64,000 bases of DNA from Methanomicrobium antiquum (lineage in GTDB: Archaea > Halobacteriota > Methanomicrobia > Methanomicrobiales > Methanomicrobiaceae), in the NCBI RefSeq assembly GCF_029633915.1, contig NZ_CP091092.1, forward strand, positions 62,001 to 126,000. Direction: 5' to 3'. The translations under genes were made by a program, and so were the position numbers. Shown here one piece after another: positions 995 to 49,971 of the stretch (positions are counted from its first letter, which is position 1; each line of letters opens with the position of its first letter). The notes under the pieces were generated by a model. That model saw only the letters and a list, made by a program, of their open reading frames with translations. It ran no database searches and was not told the origin of the DNA.

Positions 995-1339
995 TTATTT
1001 ATAAGCTTCCTCAAGCTTTGTTTTGCCGTATACATACGCAGGCATTCCTGCAAGGAGGAATGCGACTCGAAGACCTTCATCTATCTCTTCTTTTTTGACA
1101 CCGAGATTTTTTGCACCGGCAATCTGTGCATAGACAGCATGCTCGTCACGTAGTGCCGCGGCAATTGCGATTGCAATTATCTTTTTCTGCTGTCTTGTAA
1201 GTGCTCCGTCATCCCATACAAGATGGTCAAATGCAAGAATTTTCTCATGCATCAGAGGATCTGTTTTTTCAAGCTCTTTGAAAATAACAGGCACTTTTCC
1301 AATCTTTTTTCCAAGTTCATCCATACTTCCTTCACACAT
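995..1339 (-). CDS. Carboxymuconolactone decarboxylase/AhpD-like protein
   Basis: A 114-residue all-helical protein of the CMD/AhpD fold. The core LTRQQKKIIAIAIAAALRDE followed by HAVYAQIAGAKNLGVKKEEI matches the family helix-turn layout. The CxxC that supplies disulfide reductase activity in AhpD is absent: the position normally read as CxxC(H) is DEHAVYA. A thiol role is therefore doubtful and the function is unassigned. The start is the ATG at 1339, only seven bases after the desulforedoxin stop and preceded by GGAGTGA. It shares an operon with the peroxiredoxin 27 bases downstream, so a redox-stress role is inferred from context only. Confidence 0.8.
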   Translation of the reverse strand: MCEGSMDELGKKIGKVPVIFKELEKTDPLMHEKILAFDHLVWDDGALTRQQKKIIAIAIAAALRDEHAVYAQIAGAKNLGVKKEEIDEGLRVAFLLAGMPAYVYGKTKLEEAYK

Positions 1340-1346
1340 TTTTTGA

Positions 1347-1475
1347 TCACTCCGTTTCAAGAACCATAGGCTCGCCGCAACATACAAGTTCGCCGCCGCC
1401 GGCCTCTTTTACTTCAACTACATTCCCACAAATTTCGCAGACAAAAATTTCGCCTTCCTGACTTACATTCGTCAT
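1347..1475 (-). CDS. Desulforedoxin-like iron protein (42 aa)
   Basis: This short gene encodes a 42-residue protein with [12 protein letters not shown] and ELVCCGEPM. The C-x2-C plus adjacent CC arrangement is that of desulforedoxin, and of the N-terminal domain of desulfoferrodoxin, which binds one Fe(Cys)4 centre. The length matches free-standing desulforedoxin (about 36-40 residues). A GGGGG ribosome site lies before the ATG, and the stop is seven bases before the AhpD-like start, so it is an operon member. The likely job is electron transfer to peroxide- or superoxide-reducing partners; the partner is inferred from the neighbouring peroxiredoxin and rubredoxin-like genes. Confidence 0.85.
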
Positions 1476-1508
1476 CAATATACCCCCTGTTTTAAAGTAA
1501 GATTTTAT

Positions 1509-1727
1509 TTATCTTTTTGGAGGATTTTTTGCATCTTCCGGTGTTTTGATGTCTGTTCTTATATGAGTGATGGGGAAGCAGTTGTACATTTCGCATGCAC
1601 AAGCCGGACATTTTCGTAAATCCTGCTGGGAATCGTTTATTTCGTACTCAAGACCGCAGTCTACACAAACGTACTTACCTTTGCCGACTTTGTCTCCGGC
1701 TTTAACTTGTTTTGGTGTTTCACTCAT
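1509..1727 (-). CDS. Rubredoxin-like zinc-ribbon/iron protein
   Basis: A 72-residue protein with a Cys knuckle pair, YVCVDCGLEYE and RKCPACACEMY, i.e. two CxxC units about 17 residues apart. This resembles rubredoxin or the rubrerythrin C-terminal domain, although the second knuckle lacks the usual CPxCGxxK ending. The ATG at 1727 has GGTGAGA directly upstream; an earlier in-frame GTG lies within that ribosome site and was rejected. It is the first gene of the minus-strand oxidative-stress operon that continues into desulforedoxin, AhpD-like and peroxiredoxin. The metal could be iron or zinc. Confidence 0.75.
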   Translation of the reverse strand: MSETPKQVKAGDKVGKGKYVCVDCGLEYEINDSQQDLRKCPACACEMYNCFPITHIRTDIKTPEDAKNPPKR

Positions 1728-1871
1728 CGTTCTCACCTTAGACTTTCATTAGGCTGTATCTATTTATTTGTTTTGACCCTGTCAGTTTTATAGTATAATT
1801 ATACGATTGGATTGTCAGATCAAAAAAATCGGGTTAATTATAAATTCTTCAAGATTCTGATAAAAATAATT

Positions 1872-2495
1872 ATGACCTGTCAGATTATTGCACTTATGGG
1901 AAGTCCGATTCCGGATGGAAATTGTGGGAAACTTTTAGAAAAAGCAATTTCCGGTGCGAAAGACGCCGGATGCAATGTTGTAAGGGTTGATGTTCCCTCT
2001 CTTAAATTTTCACCCTGTATGGAGCATTTTTACTGTGAAAAAAATGAGGGCTGTATGATAAATGATGACTTTTCACCGTTTTTAAAGCGATTTAAAGGGG
2101 CTGACGGCTTTATTGTAGCAATGCCTGTAATGACAATGGGAGTTCCCGGTGCACTGAAATCATTTATGGACAGATTTCAGGTATATTTTATGGCAAAATA
2201 TGTGCGCCATATGCCTGTCATTACAAAGGAGCAGAAAAAATGGAGAAAGACACTTCTTCTTTCGATTGGCGGGATGAATATTCCAAACGATTTTGATGGA
2301 ATAAAGCTTACAATGGATGCATTTTGTGATATAATTGACGCTCCGCTTTATGGTGAGGTTCTTCAAAATGATATGGATAATATTAAGGATATAACAACAC
2401 GTCCTGAAGTTTTGCAGGCGGCATATGATACAGCCTTTGAGATGTGCTCTGCAATAATAACCGACAAGGATAAATATCAGCCTTTGAATGAATAA
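1872..2495 (+). CDS. Flavodoxin-fold NAD(P)H-dependent FMN reductase / iron-sulfur flavoprotein-like
   Basis: About 207 residues. The N-terminal strand and phosphate loop IIALMGSPIPDGN bind FMN, and GADGFIVAMPVMTMGVPGALKSFMDR is the family's second FMN loop (residues about 80-105). A cysteine group CMEHFYCEKNEGC lies where iron-sulfur flavoproteins carry a compact 4Fe-4S motif. One cysteine of the usual CxxCxxC is missing, so an intact cluster is uncertain. The ATG at 1872 starts exactly at the fold; an upstream TTG at 1812 would add 20 poorly conserved residues. It is transcribed divergently from the redox-stress operon, which suggests a related role. Confidence 0.75.
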   Translation: MTCQIIALMGSPIPDGNCGKLLEKAISGAKDAGCNVVRVDVPSLKFSPCMEHFYCEKNEGCMINDDFSPFLKRFKGADGFIVAMPVMTMGVPGALKSFMDRFQVYFMAKYVRHMPVITKEQKKWRKTLLLSIGGMNIPNDFDGIKLTMDAFCDIIDAPLYGEVLQNDMDNIKDITTRPEVLQAAYDTAFEMCSAIITDKDKYQPLNE

Positions 2496-2530
2496 AAAAG
2501 TCTAAATCCTTTTTATTTAAAATCTATGTC

Positions 2531-3199
2531 TTAAATAAGCCCTCTTTTTTTAAAGCTTACATATCCTCTGTTTGCAACAATCAGATGATCCAAAACTTCT
2601 ATTCCAAGAATTCCACCGGCCTCGCAGAGTCTTTTTGTAACATCTATATCCTGTGATGAGGGCTCAGGATTGCCTGAAGGGTGGTTGTGAACAAGAATCA
2701 CTGAAGCACATCTGTCAGTTATTGCATCGGCAAATACTTCCCTTGGATGAACCGGACTGTGATTTAAAAGTCCTACAGTTATGATTCTGTCTTTGATTAT
2801 TTCTCCGGCGCCGTTTAATGTCATACAGATGAAATATTCCTGCGTTTTTCCTTTAAGGTAGTTAACGGCTGGAAGCACATCTTCAGGGCATGTCACTTTG
2901 ATTATCTTTTCATCAGAGTAACGGCGGAAAAGTTCAAATGCGGCAACAATCTGTGATGCTTTTGAAAGACCCATTCCGCCGATGTTTAAAAGATCCTGCA
3001 AGTCCGGTTTTCCATCGGTTTCGTCAAGTACTTTTTCAATGTCTGATGCTATTGCATTGACATCTCTTCCGGGAATGCCGCGTCCGATTATAGCGGCAAT
3101 AAGTTCCCGGTTTTTAAGACTTTGCGGGCCAAGCCTTGAAATCTTCTCACGGGGTCTGTCCTGTTCGAGTGTGTCTTTTATTGTTTTTATTCTTGGCAT
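2531..3199 (-). CDS. radC: RadC/UPF0758 family JAB-domain protein
   Basis: 222 residues. The N-terminal helix-hairpin-helix region (residues 1-90, with NIGGMGLSKA) is followed by an MPN/JAB metalloprotease-like domain. The zinc motif HNHPSGNPEPSSQD gives the HxH-x8-S-x2-D signature near residue 170. The protein is full length for the family. RadC was named for DNA repair, but that role has been questioned and the biochemical substrate is unknown; the JAB fold suggests peptide or isopeptide hydrolysis. The gene stands alone, convergent with the flavoprotein gene. Confidence 0.9.
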   Translation of the reverse strand: MPRIKTIKDTLEQDRPREKISRLGPQSLKNRELIAAIIGRGIPGRDVNAIASDIEKVLDETDGKPDLQDLLNIGGMGLSKASQIVAAFELFRRYSDEKIIKVTCPEDVLPAVNYLKGKTQEYFICMTLNGAGEIIKDRIITVGLLNHSPVHPREVFADAITDRCASVILVHNHPSGNPEPSSQDIDVTKRLCEAGGILGIEVLDHLIVANRGYVSFKKRGLI

Positions 3200-3518
3200 T
3201 ATCTACCCCGGATTCTCTGAAATTCTGATATCTTCTCTATTATTATTAGTTTTAACGATTTTATCCTCCGGGATTTAATAAAAGCTGTAAGAATTGTTAA
3301 TGTATTGTCCTGTGTATGATTTTAAACAAGGTATTTTTATGGCTTTAAAGCTATCAAATCAATCTGAAATACGCCTGATTGAGACGATAAGAAAAATCAG
3401 TATATTCAGTGAAACCTATATTCTTCGACATTTAACGAAAAGTTATTCGACCGTAAACTATATAATTCTTAATGATTAATAGTGTAAAAACCACTATGCG
3501 GTTATGAGGGAGCAAACA

Positions 3519-5405
3519 ATGAATGAAGAAAAAGTAAACCTTAAGGCCCCGGTGTATATCCCTGATTCCTCATACCGTGATTACAGATGGATGGGGGATT
3601 ATGAGACGGTATACCGGGAGTCTGTAGAAAACCCTGAAAAGTTCTGGGAAGACATAGCAGGAGAGCTTGAATGGGATAAAAAATGGGATAATGTTCTGGA
3701 ATGGGATTATCCCGATGCCAGATGGTTTTCAGGAGCAAAATTAAACATTACGGCAAATTGTCTTGACAGGCATGTAAACAACAGTAGAAAAAACAAAGTA
3801 GCCATTATCTGGAGAGGAGATGACGGGTGTGAAAGGGTTTTTACATATCGTCAGCTTTTCCGGGAGGTAATGCGGTTTGCAAACGGTTTAAAAAAGCTTG
3901 GTATAAAAAAAGGAGATCGTATCTGCTTTTATATGCCGTTTGTTCCTGAGCACATAATTGCAATTCTTGCCTGTGCAAGAATAGGTGCTGTTCATACAAT
4001 TGTTTACGCCGGATTTGGATCTGATTCCCTGCATCAGAGAATTGTTGATTCCGAGGCAAAACTGGTGATAACAGCCGATGTCAGCATCAGACGCGGTAAA
4101 AGAATCGATTTAAAAAGCATTGTTGATGAGGCAATAGTAAATGCGCCGTCTGTTGAGCGTATTATTGTTTACAGACGAACAAAGCCTGAAATCGAACTTT
4201 ACGCCGAGATGGAGCTTGACTATTACTCCCTGATAAAAGGTGAGAGCTTTCACTGCGATCCTGAGATTATGGATGCAGAAGACCCGCTGTTTATCCTCTA
4301 CACAAGCGGCACAACAGGAGTACCAAAAGGTATCCTGCACACCTGCGGTGGATACATGGTCGGCACCTACTACACCTCAAAGTACGTATTCGATATAAAA
4401 GATTCTGACGTCTACTGGTGCACGGCAGATCCGGGCTGGATTACAGGACACAGCTACCTTGTTTACGGACCTCTCGCAGTTGGAGCAACGATATTGTTCT
4501 CTGAAACAACTCCTGATTATCCTGATCTTGGAGTATGGTGGGAGATGGTGGAGGATTTTGGTGTTACCATCCTCTATACTGCGCCAACAGCTATCAGGAT
4601 GTTTATGAAGTATGGAGAATCATGGCCTGACAAATATAATCTTGAAAGTCTGAGAATTTTAGGCTCTGTTGGAGAACCTTTGAATCCTGAGGCTTTCGAG
4701 TGGTTTTACAGAGTCATTGGAAAAAGCAAACTTCCAATTGTTGATACATGGTGGCAGACCGAGACGGGTATGCATATGATAACAACTATTGTAGGCCAGC
4801 CTATGAAGCCCGGATTTGCCGGAAAACCGATTCCCGGAGTTGTTGCAGATATAGTAGATAATGAGGGAAATCCTGTAGAGCCGGGCAAAAAAGGAAAACT
4901 GGTAATTAAAGCGCCATGGCCTTCGATGATGAGAGATGTCTGGAACAACCGGGAAAGGTATGAGCATTACTGGAATGACATTCCCGGATGCTACACGGTT
5001 GGTGATATGGCTGTTAAGGATAAAGATGGCTATATTATGATTATCGGCCGATCTGATGATGTCATAATTGTGTCCGGGCATAATATTGGTTCAGCCGAGG
5101 TTGAGTCAGCCCTTGTTGATCATAAGGCTGTATCTGAGTCTGCGGTTGTAGGCATTCCTGACGATCTGAAAGGAAACCTGATTGTTGCATATGTAATACT
5201 AAAAGAGGGTTTTACCGGAGGTGAAAAGTTAGAGAACGAGCTTAAATACCATGTCAGGATGACGCTTGGCCCGATTTCAATGCCGTCTGACATCCGGTTT
5301 GTACAGTCACTTCCAAAGACCAGAAGCGGCAAGATAATGAGGCGTGTTTTAAGAGCACAGGAGATGGGAGTAGATCCGGGAGATCTTTCAACTCTGGAGG
5401 ATTAA
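3519..5405 (+). CDS. acs: Acetyl-coenzyme A synthetase (AMP-forming)
   Basis: A 628-residue cytoplasmic enzyme that activates acetate to acetyl-CoA using ATP and CoA with release of AMP and PPi. Visible ANL-superfamily motifs are the P-loop YTSGTTGVPKG (about 260), DTWWQTETGMH (about 410), GRSDDVIIVSGHNI (about 510) and the C-terminal PKTRSGKIMRR with the catalytic and acetylatable lysine. The length is close to the roughly 650 aa norm. The ATG at 3519 is preceded by AGGGAG at the right spacing; an ATG five codons earlier overlaps that site. In a methanogen this supports acetate assimilation together with the por genes at 31-34 kb. The gene is monocistronic, with a TATA-like element near 3458. 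Confidence 0.96.
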   Translation: MNEEKVNLKAPVYIPDSSYRDYRWMGDYETVYRESVENPEKFWEDIAGELEWDKKWDNVLEWDYPDARWFSGAKLNITANCLDRHVNNSRKNKVAIIWRGDDGCERVFTYRQLFREVMRFANGLKKLGIKKGDRICFYMPFVPEHIIAILACARIGAVHTIVYAGFGSDSLHQRIVDSEAKLVITADVSIRRGKRIDLKSIVDEAIVNAPSVERIIVYRRTKPEIELYAEMELDYYSLIKGESFHCDPEIMDAEDPLFILYTSGTTGVPKGILHTCGGYMVGTYYTSKYVFDIKDSDVYWCTADPGWITGHSYLVYGPLAVGATILFSETTPDYPDLGVWWEMVEDFGVTILYTAPTAIRMFMKYGESWPDKYNLESLRILGSVGEPLNPEAFEWFYRVIGKSKLPIVDTWWQTETGMHMITTIVGQPMKPGFAGKPIPGVVADIVDNEGNPVEPGKKGKLVIKAPWPSMMRDVWNNRERYEHYWNDIPGCYTVGDMAVKDKDGYIMIIGRSDDVIIVSGHNIGSAEVESALVDHKAVSESAVVGIPDDLKGNLIVAYVILKEGFTGGEKLENELKYHVRMTLGPISMPSDIRFVQSLPKTRSGKIMRRVLRAQEMGVDPGDLSTLED

Positions 5406-5710
5406 AACAAATCTTCAGATTCATTTTTAACTCCAAACCTCTTTTAACCTCCAAAAATCTTTTAAATTCCAACATATTTTTAATGAAAAACTCCTTTGAA
5501 ATAAATAATTATCTCATCATTACAGCACACCTTTTCATATTTATCAATAAGCTTTCATGAAACAATTGCTGTATGAACCTCTTTTTTAGGTAAAACGTCC
5601 ATGATAATTTTTTTCATGCACTGGTTTCATGTAAGTTACGAAGTAACTTTCATGTAAAATCATTTATAGAATAAAATCCTTATTTCTCGTAATAAAAGGT
5701 GAAAAAATAA
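5406..5710. other. Intergenic region acs-rubrerythrin with a minus-orientation dispersed repeat
   Basis: No gene was seen here. About 190 bases of AT-rich DNA follow acs. The stretch 5592-5658 is the reverse complement of the dispersed palindromic repeat: AAACGTCCATG, CATGCACTGGTTTCATG, then the AAGTTACGAAGTAACTT hairpin. The rubrerythrin promoter must lie within the last 50 bases. Confidence 0.6.
5592..5658 (-). repeat. Dispersed palindromic repeat, copy 2
   Basis: The copy is in inverse orientation relative to those at 13421, 21906 and 40780. It holds the 17-base palindrome AAGTTACGAAGTAACTT, CATGAAA/TTTCATG words and the AAACGTCCATGA end. It lies directly upstream of rubrerythrin. Confidence 0.8.
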
Positions 5711-6211
5711 ATGACAACAATGGATAATGCAAAAGATGCATTTGCCGGTGAGTCACAGGCAAACCGCAAATACACTAATTTTTCAGAAAAAGCTGCTGCA
5801 GAAGGTTTTACAAACGTTTCTAAACTATTTAAGGCCGCGGCAGAGGCAGAAGCAATTCATGCGAAGAGACTTTTGTTTGTGATGCAGAAGGTTGGCTCAA
5901 CAGAAGAGAATCTGAAAGGATCTGTTGAAGGGGAAACAGATGAGTTTGAGACAATGTATCCGTCATTCGTGGAGATGGCTGAAAAAGAAGGAGAATCTGA
6001 AGCAAAGACTGTATTTACTCACGCAATGAAGGCAGAAGAAGTACATGCCAAAAAATACACAGAGGCTCTTGAGGCTGTATCAAACGGTGATGATTTAAAG
6101 GTCAAAAAGATATTCCTCTGTCCTGTATGTGGAAATATTGAATTCGATGAGATTCCTGAGCAATGCCCGATTTGTGGTGTTCCTGCAAGAATGTTTAAGG
6201 AAATTGAATAA
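5711..6211 (+). CDS. Rubrerythrin
   Basis: A 166-residue non-haem iron peroxidase that reduces H2O2 in anaerobes. The N-terminal ferritin-like four-helix bundle carries diiron ligands in GESQANRKY, EAEAIHAKR and AEEVHAKKY. The C-terminal rubredoxin domain has CPVCGN and CPICGV. The domain order and length match short archaeal rubrerythrins. The electron donor could be the rubredoxin-like protein at 1.5 kb or the reductase at 6.9 kb; this is inference. The start has a GGTGAAAAAATAA leader. Confidence 0.95.
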   Translation: MTTMDNAKDAFAGESQANRKYTNFSEKAAAEGFTNVSKLFKAAAEAEAIHAKRLLFVMQKVGSTEENLKGSVEGETDEFETMYPSFVEMAEKEGESEAKTVFTHAMKAEEVHAKKYTEALEAVSNGDDLKVKKIFLCPVCGNIEFDEIPEQCPICGVPARMFKEIE

Positions 6212-6307
6212 ATTATCCTTTTCCTGTTGGTTCTTCTCCATTTTTCTTAAAGTTAGGACTATCCAAAAAGAAAAACAACTTAGAGAATAACCTCAAATTG
6301 TGATGAT

Positions 6308-6926: not shown

Positions 6927-8078
6927 ATGACAGATGTAAAAGTATATTCGACAAAAGCCTGTCAGTACTGTCGCCTTTTAAAGGCCTTTTTAGACAGGCA
7001 CAACATTTCATATAAGAGTATTGATGTTGGCGAAGATCAAAACGCGGCTAAGGAGATGATTGAGCTTACAGGTCAGTATGGTGTTCCTGTAACTGTAATT
7101 GACGGTGAGGTCATAATTGGTTTTGATACTGAGCGTTTAAATGAGATTTTCGGAAGCGGAGATGCACCCGACACATATGATGTTTTGGTAATCGGCGGCG
7201 GGCCGGCAGGTCTTACTGCGGCAATGTACTGTTCAAGAAAATTTTTGTCCTGTATGATTATTACGGAAAACATCGGCGGGCAGGCGCTTGAATCATGGTC
7301 AGTTGAAAATTATATGGGATTTAGGGTGGTAACAGGCGGAGATCTCATGCAGAAATTTGAGGAGCAGATAAAGACAAGTGATGTCAGAATTGAGCTTGGA
7401 AGTGTTACAGGAATTGTTGATGAGGATAAAATATTTACAGTTGATACATCATCAAATAAGAGATTCAGGGGAAAAGCAGTAATTCTGACATCTGGTGCAA
7501 AACCCCGCTGGCTTGGCGTTGAAAATGAGGACAAGTTCATCGGCCGGGGAATTAGTGTATGCGCAACCTGTGACGGGCCTTTATACAGGGGAAAAGATGT
7601 GGCAATTGTAGGCGGGGGAAATCATGCCTTAACAACCGCAATTGAGATGAGTAAAATCGCAAAAGACGTCAGCCTGATAGTTAGAAGCAAAATACGTGCA
7701 GATGAGACTTACATAAAACAGCTTGAAAATATAAACAATATCCGCATATACAAAAATTATGTGGTCTCAAAAATATCCGGCGATAAAAGCTTAGAGTCTG
7801 TTGTGATAAAAGAGAGGGATACAAACGAAGAAAAAGAGCTGAAAATTACAGGTATGTTTATCGCGGCCGGAAATACACCAAACACGGATTTTTTAGATGG
7901 ATTTATCGAGCTCAATAATTCAGGCGAGATTGTGACAGACAAAAACGGAAGAACTTCGAGAACCGGTATCTTTGCGGCAGGTGATGTGACTGATGTTGAA
8001 GGAAAGCAGATTATTATTGCGGCGGGAGAAGGAGCTAAGGCGGCTTTAAGTGCATATACATATCTCGTCAGTCAATAA
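6927..8078 (+). CDS. Glutaredoxin-thioredoxin reductase fusion protein
   Basis: 383 residues in two parts. Residues 1-75 form a glutaredoxin/NrdH-like domain with the redox motif ACQYCRLLKAF and the cis-Pro segment YGVPVTVIDGE. Residues from about 82 form a thioredoxin reductase with the FAD-binding GGGPAGLTAAMY, the redox-active VCATCDGP and the C-terminal GIFAAGDVTD. The nucleotide-binding loop reads VGGGNHALTTA instead of the usual GGGDSA. The protein should move electrons from NAD(P)H or another donor through FAD and CATC to its own tethered glutaredoxin, which could serve the peroxidase systems nearby. Fusions of this kind are known in anaerobes. The real donor cannot be told from sequence. 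Confidence 0.92.
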   Translation: MTDVKVYSTKACQYCRLLKAFLDRHNISYKSIDVGEDQNAAKEMIELTGQYGVPVTVIDGEVIIGFDTERLNEIFGSGDAPDTYDVLVIGGGPAGLTAAMYCSRKFLSCMIITENIGGQALESWSVENYMGFRVVTGGDLMQKFEEQIKTSDVRIELGSVTGIVDEDKIFTVDTSSNKRFRGKAVILTSGAKPRWLGVENEDKFIGRGISVCATCDGPLYRGKDVAIVGGGNHALTTAIEMSKIAKDVSLIVRSKIRADETYIKQLENINNIRIYKNYVVSKISGDKSLESVVIKERDTNEEKELKITGMFIAAGNTPNTDFLDGFIELNNSGEIVTDKNGRTSRTGIFAAGDVTDVEGKQIIIAAGEGAKAALSAYTYLVSQ

Positions 8079-8188
8079 TTGAATCCCAATACTAAACTTA
8101 AATCCCAATACTAAAAACCAGAAAAAAAGACGAAAAATGAGATTAAATCGGATATAATATTTTAATTTATCCTTTTTCCTAATTTATC

Positions 8189-8575
8189 TCAGTCTGACTG
8201 TTTTTGGGATGTTAAATTCTCAATCTCGTATGCATCTGCCATTATCAGATTGCATTGTTCATAAAAGAGATGAACTGAATCCAAAAATCCTTCATAATTT
8301 TTTGTTCTTACCTGTGCTTTTGCTATACGGTAGGTTTCAAGAGGAATGCTGATGTCTTTTCCATGGTTTCTCATCTCATTTAAGACATATTTCATAAAAG
8401 AAATTTCATAGTCGGTATCGGGCATTTCATCCGGTGAAGGTGTTAGTTGCTGACTGTTAGTCTTCGAAAACGCCTGTTGTGCATTATCTGTACACCCTGA
8501 AGTGATAACTGTCCCTGATATGAGAAACAGCAGAAATCCTGTTTTTACTATTTTTTTGATGCACATATTTTTCAC
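8189..8575 (-). CDS. Small secreted lipoprotein, unknown function
   Basis: A 128-residue protein with an N-terminal hydrophobic segment and a lipobox-like ISGTVITSGCTD, so it is probably lipid-anchored outside the membrane. The mature part is hydrophilic and predicted helical; no domain was recognised. An inverted repeat TAACC-GGCA-GGTTA lies 178 bases upstream (8753-8766). The same pattern flanks the signalling operon at 9.8-14.2 kb, which suggests shared control. Confidence 0.6.
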   Translation of the reverse strand: MKNMCIKKIVKTGFLLFLISGTVITSGCTDNAQQAFSKTNSQQLTPSPDEMPDTDYEISFMKYVLNEMRNHGKDISIPLETYRIAKAQVRTKNYEGFLDSVHLFYEQCNLIMADAYEIENLTSQKQSD

Positions 8576-8752
8576 TAATTTAAACCTTTTTTTGTAATTT
8601 TTAAAATTTAAGTAATTTTTAAGACTTTATGTCTGATTTTTTTAAATCTTATTCTGACTTTATTTCAAATTTTAAAAATCTTTATTGACTTTTGTGTCTT
8701 TTCTTTGTGGATAAACGTTATAAATGAAATATATGGATTTTATTCATTCGTA

Positions 8753-40925: not shown

Positions 40926-41645
40926 ATGATCAGCGAAAGGTATGAAAGGCAGGTTTTGCTTTTATCAGAAGAAGGACAAAAACGGCTTTATGAGTCAAAA
41001 GTATTCATCGCCGGTGCAGGCGGTCTTGGAAGTCCGGTCCTGGTATATCTTACACTTGCAGGTGTCGGGAAAATTGTTGTCGCAGACAATGATACAGTCT
41101 CTCTTTCAAATTTAAACCGGCAGTTTCTGCATGATTTATCAAAACTAGGAGATATAAAAACAGATTCTGCAAGAGATACACTAAATCGTCTGAATCCTGA
41201 TGTTGAGATTGAAGGGATCTTTGAAGCGGTTACTGATGATAATATATCTGAAATTACAAAAGACTGCAGTCTTATTATTGACTGCCTTGACAATTTTGAG
41301 GCAAGACGGGTTTTAAACCGCGAGGCAGTGAGAACCGGCATTTTTATGATTCATGGTGCAGTTTCAGGATGGGACGGTCAGGCAACAACGATAATGCCTG
41401 GAAAAACACCCTGTTATGAGTGCATATTTCCCTTCGACAAAACACCATCCGGAAATTTTCCAATTGTTGGAACAACAGCAGGTGTTATAGGAAGTATTCA
41501 GGCAAATGAAGCTGTAAGGATTTTGGCAGGATATGAGCCCTCTCTTGGAGGAAAGCTTCTGATATGGGATGGACGGACTGCATCTGTTGATCAGATTCCG
41601 CTTTTGAGAAATGAAAAATGTCATGTCTGCTCAGGACTAAAGTAA
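40926..41645 (+). CDS. ThiF/MoeB/HesA-family E1-like adenylyltransferase
   Basis: A 239-residue enzyme that adenylates the C-terminal Gly of a ubiquitin-fold sulfur carrier. The ATP-binding FIAGAGGLGSPVLVYL is at about 25-40. SNLNRQFL and DCLDNFEARR are family signatures. Zinc ligands are CYECIF and CHVCSG. It heads an operon with MoaD, MoaE, YcaO and TfuA. The partner is most simply the MoaD-like protein encoded next. Whether the activated sulfur goes to molybdopterin, to YcaO thioamidation or to both is open. Confidence 0.92.
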   Translation: MISERYERQVLLLSEEGQKRLYESKVFIAGAGGLGSPVLVYLTLAGVGKIVVADNDTVSLSNLNRQFLHDLSKLGDIKTDSARDTLNRLNPDVEIEGIFEAVTDDNISEITKDCSLIIDCLDNFEARRVLNREAVRTGIFMIHGAVSGWDGQATTIMPGKTPCYECIFPFDKTPSGNFPIVGTTAGVIGSIQANEAVRILAGYEPSLGGKLLIWDGRTASVDQIPLLRNEKCHVCSGLK

Positions 41646-41654
41646 TGTAGAAAT

Positions 41655-41948
41655 ATGGTGTCAATAGAAATTACTGTTTTTGCAAGATTTAAGGAGACTT
41701 TTGGGGGATTAAGAAAGCTTGAGATATCAGAAGATAAATGTAGGGATTTTTCAGTAAAAGATGCACTTCTAAAGCTTTGTTCTGAGACAGAAGGGGGATA
41801 TGAGGTTTTGTTTGACTCTGATGAAGAAATTCTTGACAGTGTTCTTTTGATGCACAACAAAAAGAGGATTTCAGCCGGCGATGCAGATGATATTATAATT
41901 CAGGATGGGGATGGTATTGTATTATACCCGCCTGTTTCAGGAGGATAA
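41655..41948 (+). CDS. moaD: MoaD-like ubiquitin-fold sulfur carrier
   Basis: A 97-residue beta-grasp protein ending in PPVSGG, the C-terminal Gly-Gly that is adenylated and thiocarboxylated. The N-terminal VTVFARFKETFGG-like strand (here ITVFARFKETFGG) and IIIQDGDGIVLYPP match MoaD. It is 9 bases after the E1-like gene and 5 bases before moaE. Supplying thiocarboxylate to MoaE for molybdopterin is the known role. Confidence 0.92.
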   Translation: MVSIEITVFARFKETFGGLRKLEISEDKCRDFSVKDALLKLCSETEGGYEVLFDSDEEILDSVLLMHNKKRISAGDADDIIIQDGDGIVLYPPVSGG

Positions 41949-41953
41949 AAAAA

Positions 41954-42349
41954 ATGGTTATTGCGATAACAAAAGATGATATAGATATTGCAAAGCTTAT
42001 TTCTGACGCAAAGCGGCCACAGACCGGAGGTCTTGTTGTTTTTGTCGGAACTGTCCGTGATGACGGAATAGAGGCGATTGATTTTGAGTCCTTTGATGAG
42101 GCGGCTTTATCTGATCTTTACAATATCGCAGATGAGGCTGAAAAGAAGTTTTCCTTAACTTCCGTTGATATTATTCACAGAAACGGCCTTTTGAAGGTGG
42201 AAGAGACAATTCTTGTAATTGTTGCAGGTGCAGGCCACAGAGCAGAAGCATTTGACGGATGCAGGTATATTCTCGAAGAAATCAAGCGTTATGTCCCAAT
42301 ATGGAAAAAAGACATCATAAAAGACGGAGGGGAGCAATGGCACGCATGA
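41954..42349 (+). CDS. moaE: Molybdopterin synthase catalytic subunit MoaE
   Basis: A 131-residue subunit that with MoaD inserts sulfur into precursor Z to form molybdopterin. It has FVGTVRD, HRNGLLKVEE, HRAEAFDGCRYILEE and the C-terminal VPIWKKDI with the catalytic lysines. Formate dehydrogenase and formylmethanofuran dehydrogenase in methanogens need this cofactor. Its end overlaps the YcaO start by 13 bases. Confidence 0.93.
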   Translation: MVIAITKDDIDIAKLISDAKRPQTGGLVVFVGTVRDDGIEAIDFESFDEAALSDLYNIADEAEKKFSLTSVDIIHRNGLLKVEETILVIVAGAGHRAEAFDGCRYILEEIKRYVPIWKKDIIKDGGEQWHA

Positions 42350-43563
42350 GGCTTGAAAACTGCAAAAAAAGATACTCCGGCGAGAGCGAAAGGGCGAGAA
42401 AGCCTGAAGAGACACTTGAGATTATTCAGCCTGTTGCAAAAAAATGCGGTATTACAAGGGTTGCAGATATAACCGGTCTTGACAGGCTTGGAATTTTTGT
42501 ATTTTCATGCATAAGACCCGGAGCCGCCGATGGTGCAATATCGGTGTACAACGGAAAAGGGATGACTGAGAGTTCTGCAAGAGTTTCTGCAATTATGGAG
42601 GGAATTGAGAGGTATTCAGCAGAGATTAATGACAGGGAACTTGTCTATGAAAGATTCAGTTCACTTGGAGAGAAAAAGGCTGTAAATCCGTCCACTCTGA
42701 TTCTTCCTGCCGGCGTTGACCCTGATTCAAAAATTCCATGGTATCAGGGTTTTGATATAATATCAGAAGAGGATGTTTTGGTGCCTGCACATTCCGTATT
42801 TCATCCGGTGCCTTATGGTGCTGTCCGTTTTTTCAGGACAAGCACAAACGGTATTGCATCTGGAAATACTCCTGAAGAAGCGGTGCTTCATGGATTGTGT
42901 GAGGTTATAGAAAGAGATGCCTGGTCTCTTGCTGAGGCATCAGGTTTTTCCGGGCCGGTTCTTAAAAATATCACAGATCCAAATCTTAACAAAGTAATTT
43001 CACTCTTTGAGGATAACGGCGTTGAAGTCACTCTCAGGGATATTACGGCTGATAATGGCATTCCTACAATTGCGGCGGTTTCGGATGACGTAAAGCTAAA
43101 AGATCCCTCTCTTTTATGCATCGGAATGGGCACAAGTCTTTCCCCTGTCGTTGCCGCATTAAGGGCGATTACAGAGGTGGCCCAGTCCCGTGCGACACAA
43201 ATTCACGGTGCACGGGAGGATACAACCGATGCTGACTTTCGAAAGAAGCTTGGATATGACAGGACAAAGCGGCTTAACAAAAAGTGGTTTGAGACTTCAG
43301 AGTCAAAGGATTTTTCAGAGATGCCAATGTTTGAATCTGATGATTTCTTAACAGATATCAGTTATGTGTCAAAAAAGCTTCAGGAGAAGAGCGGAGTTTC
43401 TAGGATTATTGTAAGTGACTTAAGTATTGTTGATGCTGACATTAAGGTTGTACGTGTGGTAGTCCCCGGCCTTGAGACATTTTCAATTGACAGCGAAAGG
43501 GCTGGTGAGAGGTGTAGAAATGCAAGACGTAATCGTGTATTTAGGTCCAAGCCTGAGCATTGA
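42337..43563 (+). CDS. ycaO: YcaO-domain protein (McrA thioamidation type)
   Basis: A 408-residue ATP-dependent enzyme that activates a peptide amide. In methanogens YcaO with TfuA converts a glycine of methyl-CoM reductase alpha subunit to thioglycine. ATP-binding motifs are visible as SSARVSAIMEGIERYSAE (about 75-92), HGLCEVIERDAW (about 188) and ITEVAQSRATQIHGAREDT (about 278). The start ATG is preceded by GGAGGGGAGCA and lies within the end of moaE. The C-terminus overlaps tfuA by 44 bases. Gene position next to an E1/MoaD pair is notable because the sulfur donor for thioamidation is not settled. Confidence 0.93.
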   Translation: MARMRLENCKKRYSGESERARKPEETLEIIQPVAKKCGITRVADITGLDRLGIFVFSCIRPGAADGAISVYNGKGMTESSARVSAIMEGIERYSAEINDRELVYERFSSLGEKKAVNPSTLILPAGVDPDSKIPWYQGFDIISEEDVLVPAHSVFHPVPYGAVRFFRTSTNGIASGNTPEEAVLHGLCEVIERDAWSLAEASGFSGPVLKNITDPNLNKVISLFEDNGVEVTLRDITADNGIPTIAAVSDDVKLKDPSLLCIGMGTSLSPVVAALRAITEVAQSRATQIHGAREDTTDADFRKKLGYDRTKRLNKKWFETSESKDFSEMPMFESDDFLTDISYVSKKLQEKSGVSRIIVSDLSIVDADIKVVRVVVPGLETFSIDSERAGERCRNARRNRVFRSKPEH

Positions 43564-44176
43564 AAAGGCAAAGAGGATTCTGCCGGAGTCGGTTGCTGAA
43601 TACCGGCCGCCTGTTAAGCGTGGAGACCTTGCAGTTGCAGTAGCAAAGAGACCAAAGGCAATCTGCATTATTGACGGCCTTTTTTTCCAGGACTGCTCTG
43701 TGGGCCACCGCGAAATTATGGCGGCTTTAAAGTCAAAGATTTATGTTTACGGCTCATCTTCGATGGGTGCTCTTCGGGCATGCGAGCTTGACAGCTTTGG
43801 AATGGTAGGTGTGGGAAGGATTTATGAGATGTACCGTGACGGAATTATTGAGAGTGATGACGAAGTGGCACTTGCCTGCGATCCTTTTTCAAACGAGGCT
43901 GTTTCAGATGCACTTGTTGATATGAGGATTAATTTTGAAAGAGCAGTCCGGGGAGGCGTTATCACCGGAGACGAGCGGGATATTTTAATCAGGACTGCAT
44001 CGGGAATTTACTACCCGAACAGGACTTACAGACGGGTTTTGAAGGATGCAAGGACTGCCGGGGAGATTTCGGGTGAGTCTTTCGAGCGTCTGACGCGTTT
44101 TTTAAAGGAGCATCCGTTCTCCCAGAAGGAGGAGGATGCAAGGGAAGTTTTGAGGGTTGTCGGGGATGGGGTTTGA
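43520..44176 (+). CDS. tfuA: TfuA-like protein (McrA thioglycine partner)
   Basis: A 218-residue protein of the TfuA family, found beside YcaO in thioamide pathways. The conserved core is VYLGPSLSIEKA, ICIIDGLFFQDCSVGHREI and the YGSSSMGALRACEL segment, followed by GRIYEMYRDGIIESDDEVAL. It is thought to deliver sulfur or recruit the substrate for YcaO. The ATG at 43520 has GAGAGGTG upstream; an earlier ATG would lie deeper inside ycaO. It is the last gene of the operon. Confidence 0.93.
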   Translation: MQDVIVYLGPSLSIEKAKRILPESVAEYRPPVKRGDLAVAVAKRPKAICIIDGLFFQDCSVGHREIMAALKSKIYVYGSSSMGALRACELDSFGMVGVGRIYEMYRDGIIESDDEVALACDPFSNEAVSDALVDMRINFERAVRGGVITGDERDILIRTASGIYYPNRTYRRVLKDARTAGEISGESFERLTRFLKEHPFSQKEEDAREVLRVVGDGV

Positions 44177-44237: not shown

Positions 44238-44837
44238 TTACCATCTTCTCATTAATTTTTTAAGTTTTTTGTGATATGTACTCAAATCTAATTCAGGATT
44301 TTCATCAATTTTTATGCTTGCTTCTTTTTTTAGCATATAATATTGTTTAGCTTTGAGAAATTCAACTCCATCCTCCAATATGGGTAAATATTGTTGAATT
44401 TGAGAATATCTTTCAATATATTTTTTCATTTCATTTTGAGCTTTTTCCTCTTCACAATCTGTACATTTAGTTTTCCTAAAATGGTGAATATCTCTGAGGA
44501 AATTTGTAAGTAAGTCAATTCCCTTCTCAGATGTAATTTTTCTCTCTCTAAAATCCCATATTTTATCTAATAATGTGAAAATTAAAATGAATAATCCTAA
44601 AATCACAATAATTTGTCTCAAGGCAATTGCTGTATCGATTTTTATAAATAAGCAGATTATTTCTGTATCAATCATTGCTATTGTTGCAATTAATGCTGAT
44701 AAAGTAATTATTAAAAATGTGAATATATTGTCTAGATTATTGTAATGAATGTATCTTCTAGATAGTATTTCTCTATTAATTTCAGCCTTTTTGCTAATTT
44801 TGTCACATTCAGCAAGGATTTTTTCATTTTCATTCAT
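44238..44837 (-). CDS. Two-TM SLATT-domain protein, likely CBASS effector
   Basis: 199 residues. An N-terminal amphipathic helix precedes two hydrophobic helices (about 32-60 and 72-95), then a long charged C-terminal helical region (ERKITSEKGIDLLTNFLRDI, KKYIERYSQIQQYLPIL). This is the SLATT layout, known as a membrane-pore effector triggered by nucleotide second messengers. The ATG at 44837 is one base after the glycosylase stop, so the two are coupled. It is the last gene of the minus-strand operon of QueC-like, TGT-like, CD-NTase and glycosylase genes. Membrane disruption after phage sensing is inferred from that context. Confidence 0.82.
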   Translation of the reverse strand: MNENEKILAECDKISKKAEINREILSRRYIHYNNLDNIFTFLIITLSALIATIAMIDTEIICLFIKIDTAIALRQIIVILGLFILIFTLLDKIWDFRERKITSEKGIDLLTNFLRDIHHFRKTKCTDCEEEKAQNEMKKYIERYSQIQQYLPILEDGVEFLKAKQYYMLKKEASIKIDENPELDLSTYHKKLKKLMRRW

Positions 44838-44838
44838 A

Positions 44839-45483
44839 TTATGTAACAAACCTTATTTTTTTAAGAATATCCAGATATTTCGGTTCGATTGTTGCATATC
44901 GCCATAATACTACATCAACAACAGGAACACTATCTCCACTCACTTTTGATATTTTTTTACAAAACTCTTGAACATCATCAAATCCTTCGTTTAATGCAAT
45001 TCTTACTAGATGTCTATCCGGTTTTGCTACATCTAGACCAATATTTTTTGCCAGATGAAATACTGTAATCGGTCCAATGAAGTCAAATTCTTTTAATTTA
45101 TTTATTGGATCTTTCACAATTTCATTTTTAAACCAATCAAATCCTCTTTTGAAAATTAATTCAGCGGCAGCAATTATTGAAGCAATCTTTTTTTTATGAT
45201 TGAAAATTTTTAATGCTTCTTCCAAGCATGAAATTTTATTAATAGTGATTTTTTCGGCTGAAATCCAATTATAAAAACAATTTGATATAATTGGGAAATA
45301 TTTAGAAATAACTTTCTCTCTCATGCCTGAGGATAGAATGACCCAGCTGATCTCACGTAAAAAATCACTTTCAGATATTTGTTGGAATATTATATTTTTT
45401 TGCCAAATAATTTCATCATTATATCCTTCTTCAATAACAATTTTTTTTACAAAAAAATATTTTTTTACTAAATTCGAATCCAT
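44839..45483 (-). CDS. HhH-GPD (OGG-like) DNA glycosylase homologue, CBASS-associated
   Basis: 214 residues of a base-excision glycosylase fold. The helix-hairpin-helix is at 133-146 (EFDFIGPITVFHLA). It is followed by DVAKPDRHLVRIAL with the family's catalytic Asp at 156. The Lys that gives OGG1 lyase activity corresponds here to a hydrophobic or Thr residue, so at most a monofunctional glycosylase is expected. An OGG-like gene is a known component of type IV CBASS operons. The ATG overlaps the CD-NTase stop (TAATG). Its part in defence is not evident from sequence. Confidence 0.82.
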   Translation of the reverse strand: MDSNLVKKYFFVKKIVIEEGYNDEIIWQKNIIFQQISESDFLREISWVILSSGMREKVISKYFPIISNCFYNWISAEKITINKISCLEEALKIFNHKKKIASIIAAAELIFKRGFDWFKNEIVKDPINKLKEFDFIGPITVFHLAKNIGLDVAKPDRHLVRIALNEGFDDVQEFCKKISKVSGDSVPVVDVVLWRYATIEPKYLDILKKIRFVT

Positions 45484-46415
45484 TATACATCTCCAATAAT
45501 ATCTTCCCATTCAGCCTTTGATTTTGATGAATCTGCACGAGAGATTTTACTATGAATTCTTTTTAACACATAACTTGACTCATATCTTTTATTGGAATTT
45601 GCTTCTCCCAGATAATCATCTACGTGAATAGACTGATTTGTTTTATCCTTAATTGGCGTGATAATACGTTTCTGAGATTGCTCAAAGAAATATTTTAGCA
45701 TATTTTTTGGAGTATTGGGTTGGTCACGAGGATAATTTTTAAAAATTTCAATTGCAAGGGATTCAATATGATATCCTGATAATTGTTGATTAGGTGGTAA
45801 ATTTGCATTTATTCCTTTGATAAGTTTAATTACAGGAATCACTTTATTGCCACATTTTTGATTAATCTGGGTTAATTTCGAAGCGAATTGATCCGGACGT
45901 GTAACATTTGACCAACATTTTCCATTTCTTTCTGGTATTTTATATCCACTTCTGCTTTGAAGAGCTGGTAGTAATTGTATTTCAGTACCATCTTGAAATT
46001 TAACAGTAACGGCCAACTTTCCTTCTCTGATTTCTTGAACATTAGATAGATGAGAAGATAATTTGCTTTTTATAAGTTGTATTACTTGTTTAGGTGAATA
46101 ATCGGATAATTCAGAATTATTAATTAGTACAAGTATGTCCGCATCACTTAGACCCTCAACATATGTATGTTTACTAACAGATCCTCCAAATTTTAATTTG
46201 ATAGATCCATCAAATTCTGAATTAATTATTGAGAATATTTCATCAAGATGTTCATTAACAATTTGAGAATCACGGTCATTATATTTTTTTAATTTTTCAT
46301 TAATTAATTCATTAATTTGCCTTTCAAAATCATTGTTATCTGTTTGTTCATTTGTTTTCTTGATTCCATTACTGATATTTTTTCCCGGATTATATGAATT
46401 TCCACCGCCACCCAT
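45483..46415 (-). CDS. CD-NTase (cGAS/DncV-like nucleotidyltransferase) of type IV CBASS
   Basis: 310 residues. The nucleotidyltransferase core has FGGSVSKHTYVEGLSDADIL (77-95), i.e. GS, then T, then SDxD with two metal-binding Asp. The third carboxylate position reads TEIQLLPA (144-151), with Gln where many relatives have Asp. A helical C-terminal domain follows. It should make a cyclic or linear oligonucleotide signal on infection. The start at 46415 (GGTGAT four bases before ATG) gives MGGGGNSYNPGK, a Gly-rich N-terminus fitting the reported N-terminal deazaguanine conjugation by QueC-like partners. It overlaps the end of the glycosylase gene and closely follows the TGT-like gene. Confidence 0.88.
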   Translation of the reverse strand: MGGGGNSYNPGKNISNGIKKTNEQTDNNDFERQINELINEKLKKYNDRDSQIVNEHLDEIFSIINSEFDGSIKLKFGGSVSKHTYVEGLSDADILVLINNSELSDYSPKQVIQLIKSKLSSHLSNVQEIREGKLAVTVKFQDGTEIQLLPALQSRSGYKIPERNGKCWSNVTRPDQFASKLTQINQKCGNKVIPVIKLIKGINANLPPNQQLSGYHIESLAIEIFKNYPRDQPNTPKNMLKYFFEQSQKRIITPIKDKTNQSIHVDDYLGEANSNKRYESSYVLKRIHSKISRADSSKSKAEWEDIIGDV

Positions 46416-46420
46416 AATTA

Positions 46421-47464
46421 TCACCTTGTAATTTTAGATTTAAATAATTTACAACTTTCCTCAAAAAATTTAGGATCCATGTTTAATTCATTAAAAGATT
46501 CAAAAGATTGAGTTTTATGCAATCTTCTTAAAACTAATTCTAAATTTTTTAAATAAGCATAATTCTCTTTGCGCGATTCATAAATCAAATTATTATCAGG
46601 ATATTCAATACCCCACTTTAAACGTCCTAAACTGTGATTATATCCTGAATAATTTTGATAATAGAAATATCTGAGCCAAGAAAGTCCATCAAAAATATCA
46701 GCACCTGCCATGTAATATAATGGTGTTGTAACTGGATCCAGACTTCCAAAAATGTGTATTGGTATCTTTAATTCTTTTTTATCTAAGCATTCTCTAATTT
46801 TTGCAATATTACACATTCTTTGAAGTGTTGAAGTTCCAAGTTCTTTTTCAGTAAATCCAAGGATATCAAAATATTGAAACTCATCAGAATATGTTAGTAA
46901 TTTGTCAATTTCAATTATATCATTATTTTCAGATTTGATTAGAAAATTTTTAACAACATTTTTTCCTTTAAATGAATTTTTAGCATTATATATCTGTTTT
47001 AAGAATGTTTTCTCCTCATTTGGAATACTTGGATGATCAAAACTAACAAGAATAACAGGAATTTTTGATTTTATTAATTCAATATTTTTTAGAAATTTTT
47101 CGACAGTATGGGTAAATAATATATCATTCCATTCATTTGGAAGGTTTTTCTGAGTTCCGTTATCTGTACTATCATTTTCAGATAAACATTCATATCCTCC
47201 ACTGTCAATAATCACAAAATCTAAATTTGAAAAATCAATTTCAAGGCCATCAGATGAATGATGATCATAAAATGAATGAAGATCGTATGCACTTATTAAA
47301 AGGCCATCCGAAATATATGATAAAGAATTATTTATTGAATTTTGTAATTCCTCAGGTTTTTTTGAATCAATGGTACCTGCTTGGCTAGAAAATGAAGGAA
47401 CAAGTAATGGAGTTGTTCCAATTGTAAGACCATTCCAATTAATGTCCAAAATTCTTGTTTTCAT
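46421..47464 (-). CDS. TGT-like protein (tRNA-guanine transglycosylase homologue), CBASS-associated
   Basis: 347 residues of the queuine/archaeosine transglycosylase TIM-barrel family. The diagnostic segment is FVIIDSGGYECL (84-95; DSGGF in canonical enzymes). The GSLDPVTTPLYYMAGADIFDG segment at about 230-250 matches the barrel's base-binding side. No zinc-binding Cys cluster or PUA domain is present, so it is a short form rather than a housekeeping archaeosine enzyme. It overlaps the QueC-like gene by 26 bases and ends just before the CD-NTase. In type IV CBASS such a gene is a standard companion. Confidence 0.82.
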   Translation of the reverse strand: MKTRILDINWNGLTIGTTPLLVPSFSSQAGTIDSKKPEELQNSINNSLSYISDGLLISAYDLHSFYDHHSSDGLEIDFSNLDFVIIDSGGYECLSENDSTDNGTQKNLPNEWNDILFTHTVEKFLKNIELIKSKIPVILVSFDHPSIPNEEKTFLKQIYNAKNSFKGKNVVKNFLIKSENNDIIEIDKLLTYSDEFQYFDILGFTEKELGTSTLQRMCNIAKIRECLDKKELKIPIHIFGSLDPVTTPLYYMAGADIFDGLSWLRYFYYQNYSGYNHSLGRLKWGIEYPDNNLIYESRKENYAYLKNLELVLRRLHKTQSFESFNELNMDPKFFEESCKLFKSKITR

Positions 47465-48026
47465 AAAAATTCAACCTATCTAAACATGAAAGACATTTAT
47501 TACAGGGGTTATCTCCCCCAGATTCACAGCTATAAGTCATTTCTAGTGGTATTTTATGAAGATTACAATATTCAATAATCAATTTTTTGTTCCATTCTAG
47601 AAACGGAATGTCTAGAATTACAGTACCATTTGAATAACCATCAATAATTGTCTGGATTTCATTAACAAATTGAATTGAACAATCGTAGTAAGAAGTACCA
47701 CTATGTATTCCCATTGAAATGAGTCCTGTAAAATTTTTAAAAGATAATAATGTGGCAATTATTAAAAAGCAATTCCGACCTTTAATTTCCCCAGATTCAA
47801 AAGCAGTTTCATGGACAAAATTAGCTTTTTTGATTTTTATATTGAAATGAGATCCAATTTGATTGCAACACTTTAATTCATTTTTGGCTGCCGCTTGTCC
47901 ATAGTCAACAAAAAAACCTGTGACGTTAAAACCTTTATTGATGTAATAATGCACGCAGGCCATTGAATCTATACCCCCGCTTAATAGAACAATAACTTGC
48001 TTACTGGAATATTCGTCCGAGTACAT
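47439..48026 (-). CDS. QueC-like ATPase (7-cyano-7-deazaguanine synthase homologue), CBASS-associated
   Basis: 195 residues. The PP-loop VLLSGGIDSMACV (13-25) binds ATP. FFVDYGQ is the typical second strand. A C-terminal zinc site CESGGDNPCNKCLSC uses Cys 167, 175, 178 and 181. QueC turns a carboxylated deazaguanine into preQ0. The QueC-like protein of type IV CBASS is reported to attach the base to the N-terminal Gly of the CD-NTase instead. No other queuosine or archaeosine genes are nearby, which favours the defence role. It is first in the operon, with an AAAGATATAATTATTATA promoter-like stretch just before the start. Confidence 0.87.
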   Translation of the reverse strand: MYSDEYSSKQVIVLLSGGIDSMACVHYYINKGFNVTGFFVDYGQAAAKNELKCCNQIGSHFNIKIKKANFVHETAFESGEIKGRNCFLIIATLLSFKNFTGLISMGIHSGTSYYDCSIQFVNEIQTIIDGYSNGTVILDIPFLEWNKKLIIEYCNLHKIPLEMTYSCESGGDNPCNKCLSCLDRLNFYENKNFGH

Positions 48027-48078
48027 CTAATATAATAATTATATCTTTGTAGGATGAAATATATTCTTTGTGGAATTG

Positions 48079-48927
48079 ATGGATTATTATAAAGAAGCTA
48101 AAAAAATTTGGAAGAAATTTGAAATTTTATTATTGATCATCATTATTGTAATTGGATTTGCAATTGCTTATTGGCTTGCTCCGTTATCAGGTGATTTAGG
48201 AGATATAGTTTATAATTTGGGTATTTTTATTTCTACGGTTTTCGCAGTTCAATTAATTTATGAGATTATTTTTAAGAAAAATGATCAGGAATTCTATAAG
48301 ACAGAATTGATCCAGATTTGGGAGGAAAAAATTCCAGAAATAGTTAAATCAGGGATTATTTTTTATGAGGATGGTCGTAGGCCTCCTGATGAAAAATTAA
48401 ATTTTTATCAGGAAGCGGAAAAGGAAATTATCGAAGTGGCTGCTACATTTCATTCATTTACAACTAAATTCTCTTCAGTTCCTGATTCAAAATTTAAAAT
48501 ACCTATTCTTAGTCTTATGAAAAAAGGAGTAAATATAAAATTATACTTACTAGATCCAGAGTCTGAATCTGCATCAGCTTATCAAAACTGTACTCCTGAT
48601 AATGATGATATTATCAATAAAGTTCATTTAAGTATTGAAAGTCTACAAATAATTATCAAAGAGTTAAATGAAAGTAGTGATTTAGGTAAGATGGAGTTAT
48701 ATACCTATAATTACATTCCTCTTTTAAATGGCGTTTTTTTAGATTTTGTGGAAGATGAATCTCAAAATTCGAGAGCTTTTGTCTCTCACTATCTTCCATA
48801 TATGGAAAAAAGAAGTGAAAATCCTGGATTTTATTTTACAAAAAAACAAAATCCACAATTATTTGGAAAATATTCTTTTTTTATAAAAAAATTGAAAGAA
48901 AATGGGAAATTAGTGGAGAATTTATAA
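48079..48927 (+). CDS. Two-TM protein with PLD-like cytoplasmic domain, unknown function
   Basis: 282 residues. Two membrane helices (about 16-36 and 45-68) are followed by a soluble domain. Patterns such as AEKEIIEVAATFHSFT and GVNIKLYLLDPES recall phospholipase-D-like folds used near membranes; no HKD catalytic motif is visible. It is transcribed divergently from the CBASS operon, 52 bases away. Shared base composition and position suggest a defence-island gene or an extra membrane effector (inference). The ATG at 48079 was chosen; an upstream GTG (48070) is possible. Confidence 0.65.
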   Translation: MDYYKEAKKIWKKFEILLLIIIIVIGFAIAYWLAPLSGDLGDIVYNLGIFISTVFAVQLIYEIIFKKNDQEFYKTELIQIWEEKIPEIVKSGIIFYEDGRRPPDEKLNFYQEAEKEIIEVAATFHSFTTKFSSVPDSKFKIPILSLMKKGVNIKLYLLDPESESASAYQNCTPDNDDIINKVHLSIESLQIIIKELNESSDLGKMELYTYNYIPLLNGVFLDFVEDESQNSRAFVSHYLPYMEKRSENPGFYFTKKQNPQLFGKYSFFIKKLKENGKLVENL

Positions 48928-49812: not shown

Positions 49813-49971
49813 TTAAACCTCTTTTTCATCATCCCCCTGGTATCTTTCATTGTTGGGGTTTAACTGGTCGGAATGATTGTCCATTGCTGCATGGTATGCA
49901 TCGTTATTTGGATTCATAGAATCAGACCGGTCATCGTTTGCACTGCGGCCTCCACCGCCTCCTTTTCCCAT
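49813..49971 (-). CDS. 52-aa Gly-rich, NPNN-repeat small protein
   Basis: A short gene with a strong GGAGGTG site before ATG. The product starts MGKGGGGGRSAND. It then has two copies of a short unit, SDSMNPNNDAYHAAMDN and SDQLNPNNERYQG. The same (S/N)xxxNPNNxxY unit is widespread in tiny bacterial and archaeal proteins of unknown function. The short length, clean ribosome site and internal repeat argue for a real gene. No function can be assigned. Confidence 0.75.
   Translation of the reverse strand: MGKGGGGGRSANDDRSDSMNPNNDAYHAAMDNHSDQLNPNNERYQGDDEKEV

Follow-up and report, generated by a model that had tools for sequence, protein, structure and literature searches.

A type IV CBASS operon in the methanogen Methanomicrobium antiquum with a CD-NTase predicted to be deazaguanylated at Gly2

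A five-gene operon in a 64,000-nucleotide stretch of the Methanomicrobium antiquum genome (contig NZ_CP091092.1, positions 62,001 to 126,000; the whole stretch is called the window and numbered from 1) is a complete type IV CBASS, as judged from its genes and from the sequences, motifs and fold of their products. We infer that in this organism the QueC-like protein Cap9 deazaguanylates the CD-NTase, CdnD, at Gly2 with 7-carboxy-7-deazaguanine (CDG) supplied by the host, a reading to which we give a probability of about 0.9. The system is most likely an archaeal case of the published deazaguanylation, a chemistry already described for bacteria. N-terminal deazaguanylation, shown so far in bacterial type IV CBASS, would thus extend to a methanogen, where CDG would derive from archaeosine synthesis.

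Composition of the operon

The operon runs on the minus strand from 48026 to 44238 in the order Cap9 (QueC-like), Cap10 (TGT-like), CdnD, an OGG-like protein and a 2TM effector, and all five genes gave a strong PADLOC match to their respective type IV CBASS family. The gene cap9 (47439..48026) encodes a QueC-like ligase of 195 aa, identified by PDLC00911 (1.7e-75), by 9NTO Cap9 (7.4e-42) and by its motif columns. It is followed by cap10 (46421..47464; PDLC00913, 3.6e-83; 9NTN Cap10, 8.7e-46) and by cdnD (45483..46415), the product of which, a CD-NTase of 310 aa, matched PDLC00790 (3e-124) and CdnD of PDB entries 9NTN/9NTO (1.6e-72). The OGG-like gene of the HhH glycosylase family (44839..45483; PDLC00910, 1.9e-88) and the gene for the 2TM (SLATT-like) effector (44238..44837; PDLC00684, 3.9e-19) complete the set. 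The same gene order was also found in loci L009, L010 and L011.

In phmmer searches the solved proteins of 9NTN/9NTO were the sole PDB sequence match for each of CdnD, Cap9 and Cap10, over nearly the full length, with identities of 41% for CdnD and 39% for Cap9. These entries are the Cap9-CdnD and Cap10-CdnD complexes, and their titles name the NDG modification, a deazaguanine carried on the N-terminus. The nucleotidyltransferase motif GS...DxD of CdnD is intact, G78, S79, D91 and D93 being invariant in 49 sequences. An AlphaFold2 model of CdnD built from a 49-sequence alignment had a mean pLDDT of 84.7, and its best structural matches in Foldseek were 9nto_A and 9ntn_G. Scans of viral contigs with Cap9 and with the CdnD alignment returned no relatives, and that collection therefore gives no evidence for the operon as viral cargo.

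The solved type IV CBASS Cap9-Cap10-CdnD (9NTN, 9NTO; Wassarman et al. 2025) shares with the window its three genes, the gene order of relatives, the Gly2 start, the Cap9 active site and the homology of Cap10. It differs in that the window system has an archaeal host, in which CDG is expected to come from archaeosine synthesis, in that CdnD here starts with MGGGGN and not with the common MGGSGG, and in its flanking genes.

The start of CdnD and residue 2 in related loci

The translation of cdnD (46415-45483, minus strand) opens with MGGGGNSYNPGK. Its ATG start codon (46413..46415) was assigned from the sequence and from the M-G start kept in 48 of 53 relatives plus the window. The DNA from 46415 to 46384 reads ATGGGTGGCGGTGGAAATTCATATAATCC.. 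and encodes the N-terminal tail MGGGGNSYNP.., which is predicted to be flexible, residues 1-10 having a mean pLDDT of 51. A Shine-Dalgarno sequence, AGGTGAT (46420..46426, minus strand), stands 4 nt before the ATG. The genome holds three copies of the usual 16S 3'-end sequence GGCTGGATCACCTCC, so that AGGTGAT is a 7-nt match. It overlaps the stop codon TGA of Cap10 (46423-46421) in a coupled arrangement, and a GGTGA-containing site of a similar kind occurs in L016. The sequence ATGGGNGGNGGNGGN occurs five times in the 2.44-Mb genome; the CdnD copy alone has a good Shine-Dalgarno at a gene start, and the other four appear to be internal or to lack a Shine-Dalgarno.

The sole alternative start in frame is a GTG at 46424, three codons upstream of the ATG, which would yield MIIMGGGG and thereby place the Gly run away from the N-terminus. 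This codon, however, falls inside the Shine-Dalgarno sequence, and relatives begin at the codon before the Gly run, many of them with a good Shine-Dalgarno and without an alternative start. Initiation at the GTG thus deserves hardly any credence, and the assignment of the start to the ATG at 46415-46413 is sound. The preliminary description had read the ribosome site as fixing this start and the Gly run as exposed ahead of a flexible stretch. Both points held: the former by the 7-nt match, the 4-nt spacing, the relatives and the check for translation starting elsewhere, the latter by the low confidence of the tail in the fold model. By homology, the predicted NDG acceptor is residue 2 of CdnD, encoded by the codon GGT at 46412-46410 (minus strand).

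Related loci were collected by a genome scan with the CdnD alignment, which found 53 loci. Residue 2 was counted in 53 CdnD genes (50 deduplicated loci together with L009, L010 and L011), and starts were picked by start codon and Shine-Dalgarno alone, blind to residue 2. Gly2 was present in 48/53 CdnD, compared to 5/48 Cap9, 0/47 Cap10 and 1/42 OGG proteins, and Gly-Gly at positions 2-3 was found in 45 of the 53 CdnD. Among 190 sampled ORFs preceded by a Shine-Dalgarno, every MGG start belonged to a CdnD. Entropy at the CdnD start was 0.4-1.05 bits at positions 2-6 and exceeded 3 bits from position 9 on, which indicates conservation of the N-terminal motif ahead of a rapidly diverging linker. 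The common start of the family is MGGSGG, and the window variant MGGGGN fits MGG(S/G)GG. On a Pseudanabaena plasmid, the CD-NTase of a type IV operon likewise starts with MGGSGGG, whereas three plasmid-borne CD-NTases from other types of CBASS had no Gly run. A chance origin of the Gly run, which had also been considered, was ruled out by the 53-locus survey.

Five CdnD are without Gly2. Four of them start with another small residue followed by the usual Gly-rich motif, namely Ser in L039 (1811) and L045 (6923), Cys in L047 (6941) and Ala in L063 (658). Their Shine-Dalgarno sequences are plausible, and clear in L045, L047 and L063. Strict Gly is therefore not universal. Ser, Cys and Ala at position 2 all permit removal of the Met. 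The survey yields an acceptor rule for the family: a small residue from which Met can be cleaved, nearly always Gly, and then a Gly-rich stretch. With their Ser, Cys or Ala, these four relatives allow a direct test of which acceptors Cap9 can use. The fifth, L015 of the Thermoplasmata, has an odd start: at 5301-5320 the Gly run is preceded by ATA, not ATG, behind the strong Shine-Dalgarno GGGGGTGATTAAT; an AUA start, an upstream GTG start and a sequence error are candidate readings.

Cap9, Cap10 or both adjoin CdnD in all loci except L064, which is cut off by the end of its contig a short way upstream. Cap9 was not found in L063, which lies near a contig end, and Cap10 was not found in L039. 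In the latter locus (1223-6252) cdnD is followed by a fusion of PfkB and nucleoside deoxyribosyltransferase, a Cap17-like gene, an exonuclease and OGG, and L039 is a possible variant without Cap10.

Cap9 and the supply of CDG

According to Wassarman et al. 2025 (PMC11996544), the QueC-like Cap9 of type IV CBASS joins CDG to Gly2 at the N-terminus of the CD-NTase, and Gao et al. 2026 (PMC13279940) likewise describe Cap9 as attaching CDG to this residue. Published work on type IV CBASS gives NDG as required in defence. Cap9 of the window carries the motifs SGGIDS, GRN, YYDC and PF-x4-K and the four-Cys zinc motif, that is, the family motifs catalogued in PMC13329287. In Cap9 of 9NTO the CDG contacts are Y115 and D117 (PMC13279940), to which Y113 and D115 of the window protein align. 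Residues R84, N85, Y113, D115 and K147 are invariant (49/49, with L039, L045 and L047, whose CdnD start with Ser, Ser and Cys, among the sequences), and the residues contacting CDG and ATP as well as the zinc cysteines are retained. By the published chemistry the acceptor would be Gly2 only, and the rest of the Gly run may serve recognition by Cap9 and Cap10.

Canonical QueC resembles Cap9 in its PP-loop ATPase fold, its CDG and ATP sites and its zinc cysteines; Cap9, however, is shorter (195 aa) and lies in a CBASS operon, and the genome has a separate QueC of 256 aa. A second comparison is with qatABCD (Gao et al. 2026, PMC13279940), where the QueC-like QatC is proposed to act on the N-terminal glycine of QatB, which starts with MGTS and has a disordered tail. 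In QatC, by contrast, the CDG site is remodelled (T278/T280) and extra domains are present, QatB does not belong to the CD-NTases, and the window operon is without qatA, qatB and qatD. A qatABCD identity of the operon was ruled out by its CBASS-type genes and by its Cap9 of 195 aa with YYDC and without the QatC motifs.

The host chromosome holds a queD-queE-queC cluster (G000:C1, about 1,700,930-1,702,750), with queD at 8347-8751, queE at 7693-8301 and queC at 6933-7703 of L004, and with it the genes for CDG synthesis. In six bacterial relatives, mainly Actinobacteria, queD and queE are linked to the CBASS itself. They stand directly upstream of cap9 in L054, L055 and L059 (order queD-queE-cap9-cap10-cdnD), and in L049, L053 and L062 queE-queD come after cdnD and, in the last two of these, before an OGG-family gene. 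Canonical QueC was not seen in the inspected stretches of these loci. That queD and queE lie next to or within type IV operons supports CDG as the donor for Cap9 and constitutes independent genomic evidence for it; the literature found, which covered the main paper short of its full text, makes no mention of this linkage.

A match to the B. subtilis-type QueE model was obtained in 34 of the 49 type IV genomes. Of the other 15, one fitted the Cx14CxxC model, the 14 then left gave no match to the E. coli QueE model, and six matched the gamma QueE model no more than weakly; 9 of the 15 were without a QueD match. With the models used, 9/49 genomes, many of them incomplete MAGs, had neither QueD nor a convincing QueE. 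They would need salvage or an unrecognised source of CDG. Genomes without detectable QueD or QueE include those of L060 (Devosia sp. YR412, not labelled a MAG), L033 and L035, among others.

In the sequence of events that we propose, methionine aminopeptidase would remove Met1 of CdnD and the N-terminal amine of Gly2 would enter the active site of Cap9. Host QueD and QueE would make CDG, an intermediate of archaeosine synthesis, which Cap9 would activate with ATP and join to Gly2 through an amide, giving the NDG tail. Cap10 would then bind this tail, and it would be in this modified form that CdnD can signal through cyclic oligonucleotides to the 2TM membrane effector. The relatives with Ser, Cys or Ala at position 2 and the nine genomes without QueD and QueE weigh against this scheme. 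Acetylation of the N-terminus, which is known in archaea, could in principle compete with the modification.

Two other readings were weighed against deazaguanylation by Cap9. The Gly-rich start might be a mere docking tail for Cap9 and Cap10, the base being not attached or not needed here. The low confidence of the tail in the fold model is compatible with this, and modification data were found for no archaeal system. Against it, conservation is far higher at the very N-terminus than in the remaining tail, and Cap9 retains all catalytic residues, which a mere docking role does not demand; we regard this explanation as improbable. Alternatively, the base added by Cap9 might be another 7-deazaguanine, such as one of the preQ0 or archaeosine type, since in archaea these compounds serve archaeosine and not queuosine (PMC13329287). 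The conservation of the CDG contacts Y113/D115 argues against another base, as do the CBASS-linked queD and queE, which make CDG, in stretches where canonical QueC was not seen, and this reading appears very improbable. Deazaguanylation of Gly2 with CDG remains the preferred reading. The preliminary description had proposed the N-terminal Gly as a candidate deazaguanine acceptor from recent reports, which do exist (PMC11996544 and PMC13279940), and from a QueC-like gene in the operon of the CD-NTase, where PADLOC indeed places cap9. The operon type, the matches of CdnD, Cap9 and Cap10, the Cap9 residues and the CDG genes support its interpretation by homology.

Cap10 and neighbouring genes

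Residues D87, D143 and D259 of Cap10, which putatively correspond to the TGT catalytic positions, show no variation across the 50-52 sequences scored. A profile search of Cap10 against canonical TGT structures gave 9NTN as the sole match. It is conceivable, though we think it unlikely, that Cap10 not only binds the NDG tail but inserts it as a base by transglycosylation and so links CdnD to nucleic acid as an infection-sensing step, with that bond also the target of the OGG-like glycosylase. The nucleic acid in such a scheme may be tRNA from the infected cell, or DNA or RNA of the virus.

Divergent from the operon, at 48076..48927 (plus strand), lies a 2TM + DUF5919-type gene, a candidate accessory with homologs near CBASS elsewhere. 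Its product is hydrophobic at the N-terminus, probably with a two-helix membrane part, and its predicted structure is of low confidence (pLDDT 52). The DUF5919-type domain was assigned by homology, the L011 homolog scoring above the Pfam cut-off and the window protein below it. Homologs lie in L011 (11837-12709, minus strand), L014 (4962-5816, minus strand) and L072 (5872-6711). In L011/L013 and L014 they stand at the opposite end of the type IV operon, and another adjoins a SAVED CBASS on the Nostoc plasmid pNPM2. In all, three archaeal loci have the gene next to type IV CBASS. Two of 295 genomes of the phylum have it, those of the window and of L011, and these are two of the four that carry Cap9. 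The gene may be an accessory of the operon or a mere companion in the island.

Two further features were noted nearby. A small ORF at 49816-49971 (minus strand) starts with MGKGGGGGRSANDDRSDSMNPNND.. and thus has a Gly-rich N-terminus near the operon, with no family above cut-off. On the plus strand, 40926-44176 holds a row of ThiF/MoeB-like, MoaD-like, MoaE-like, YcaO-like and TfuA-like genes, named by eye, which looks like a molybdopterin/thioamidation cluster.
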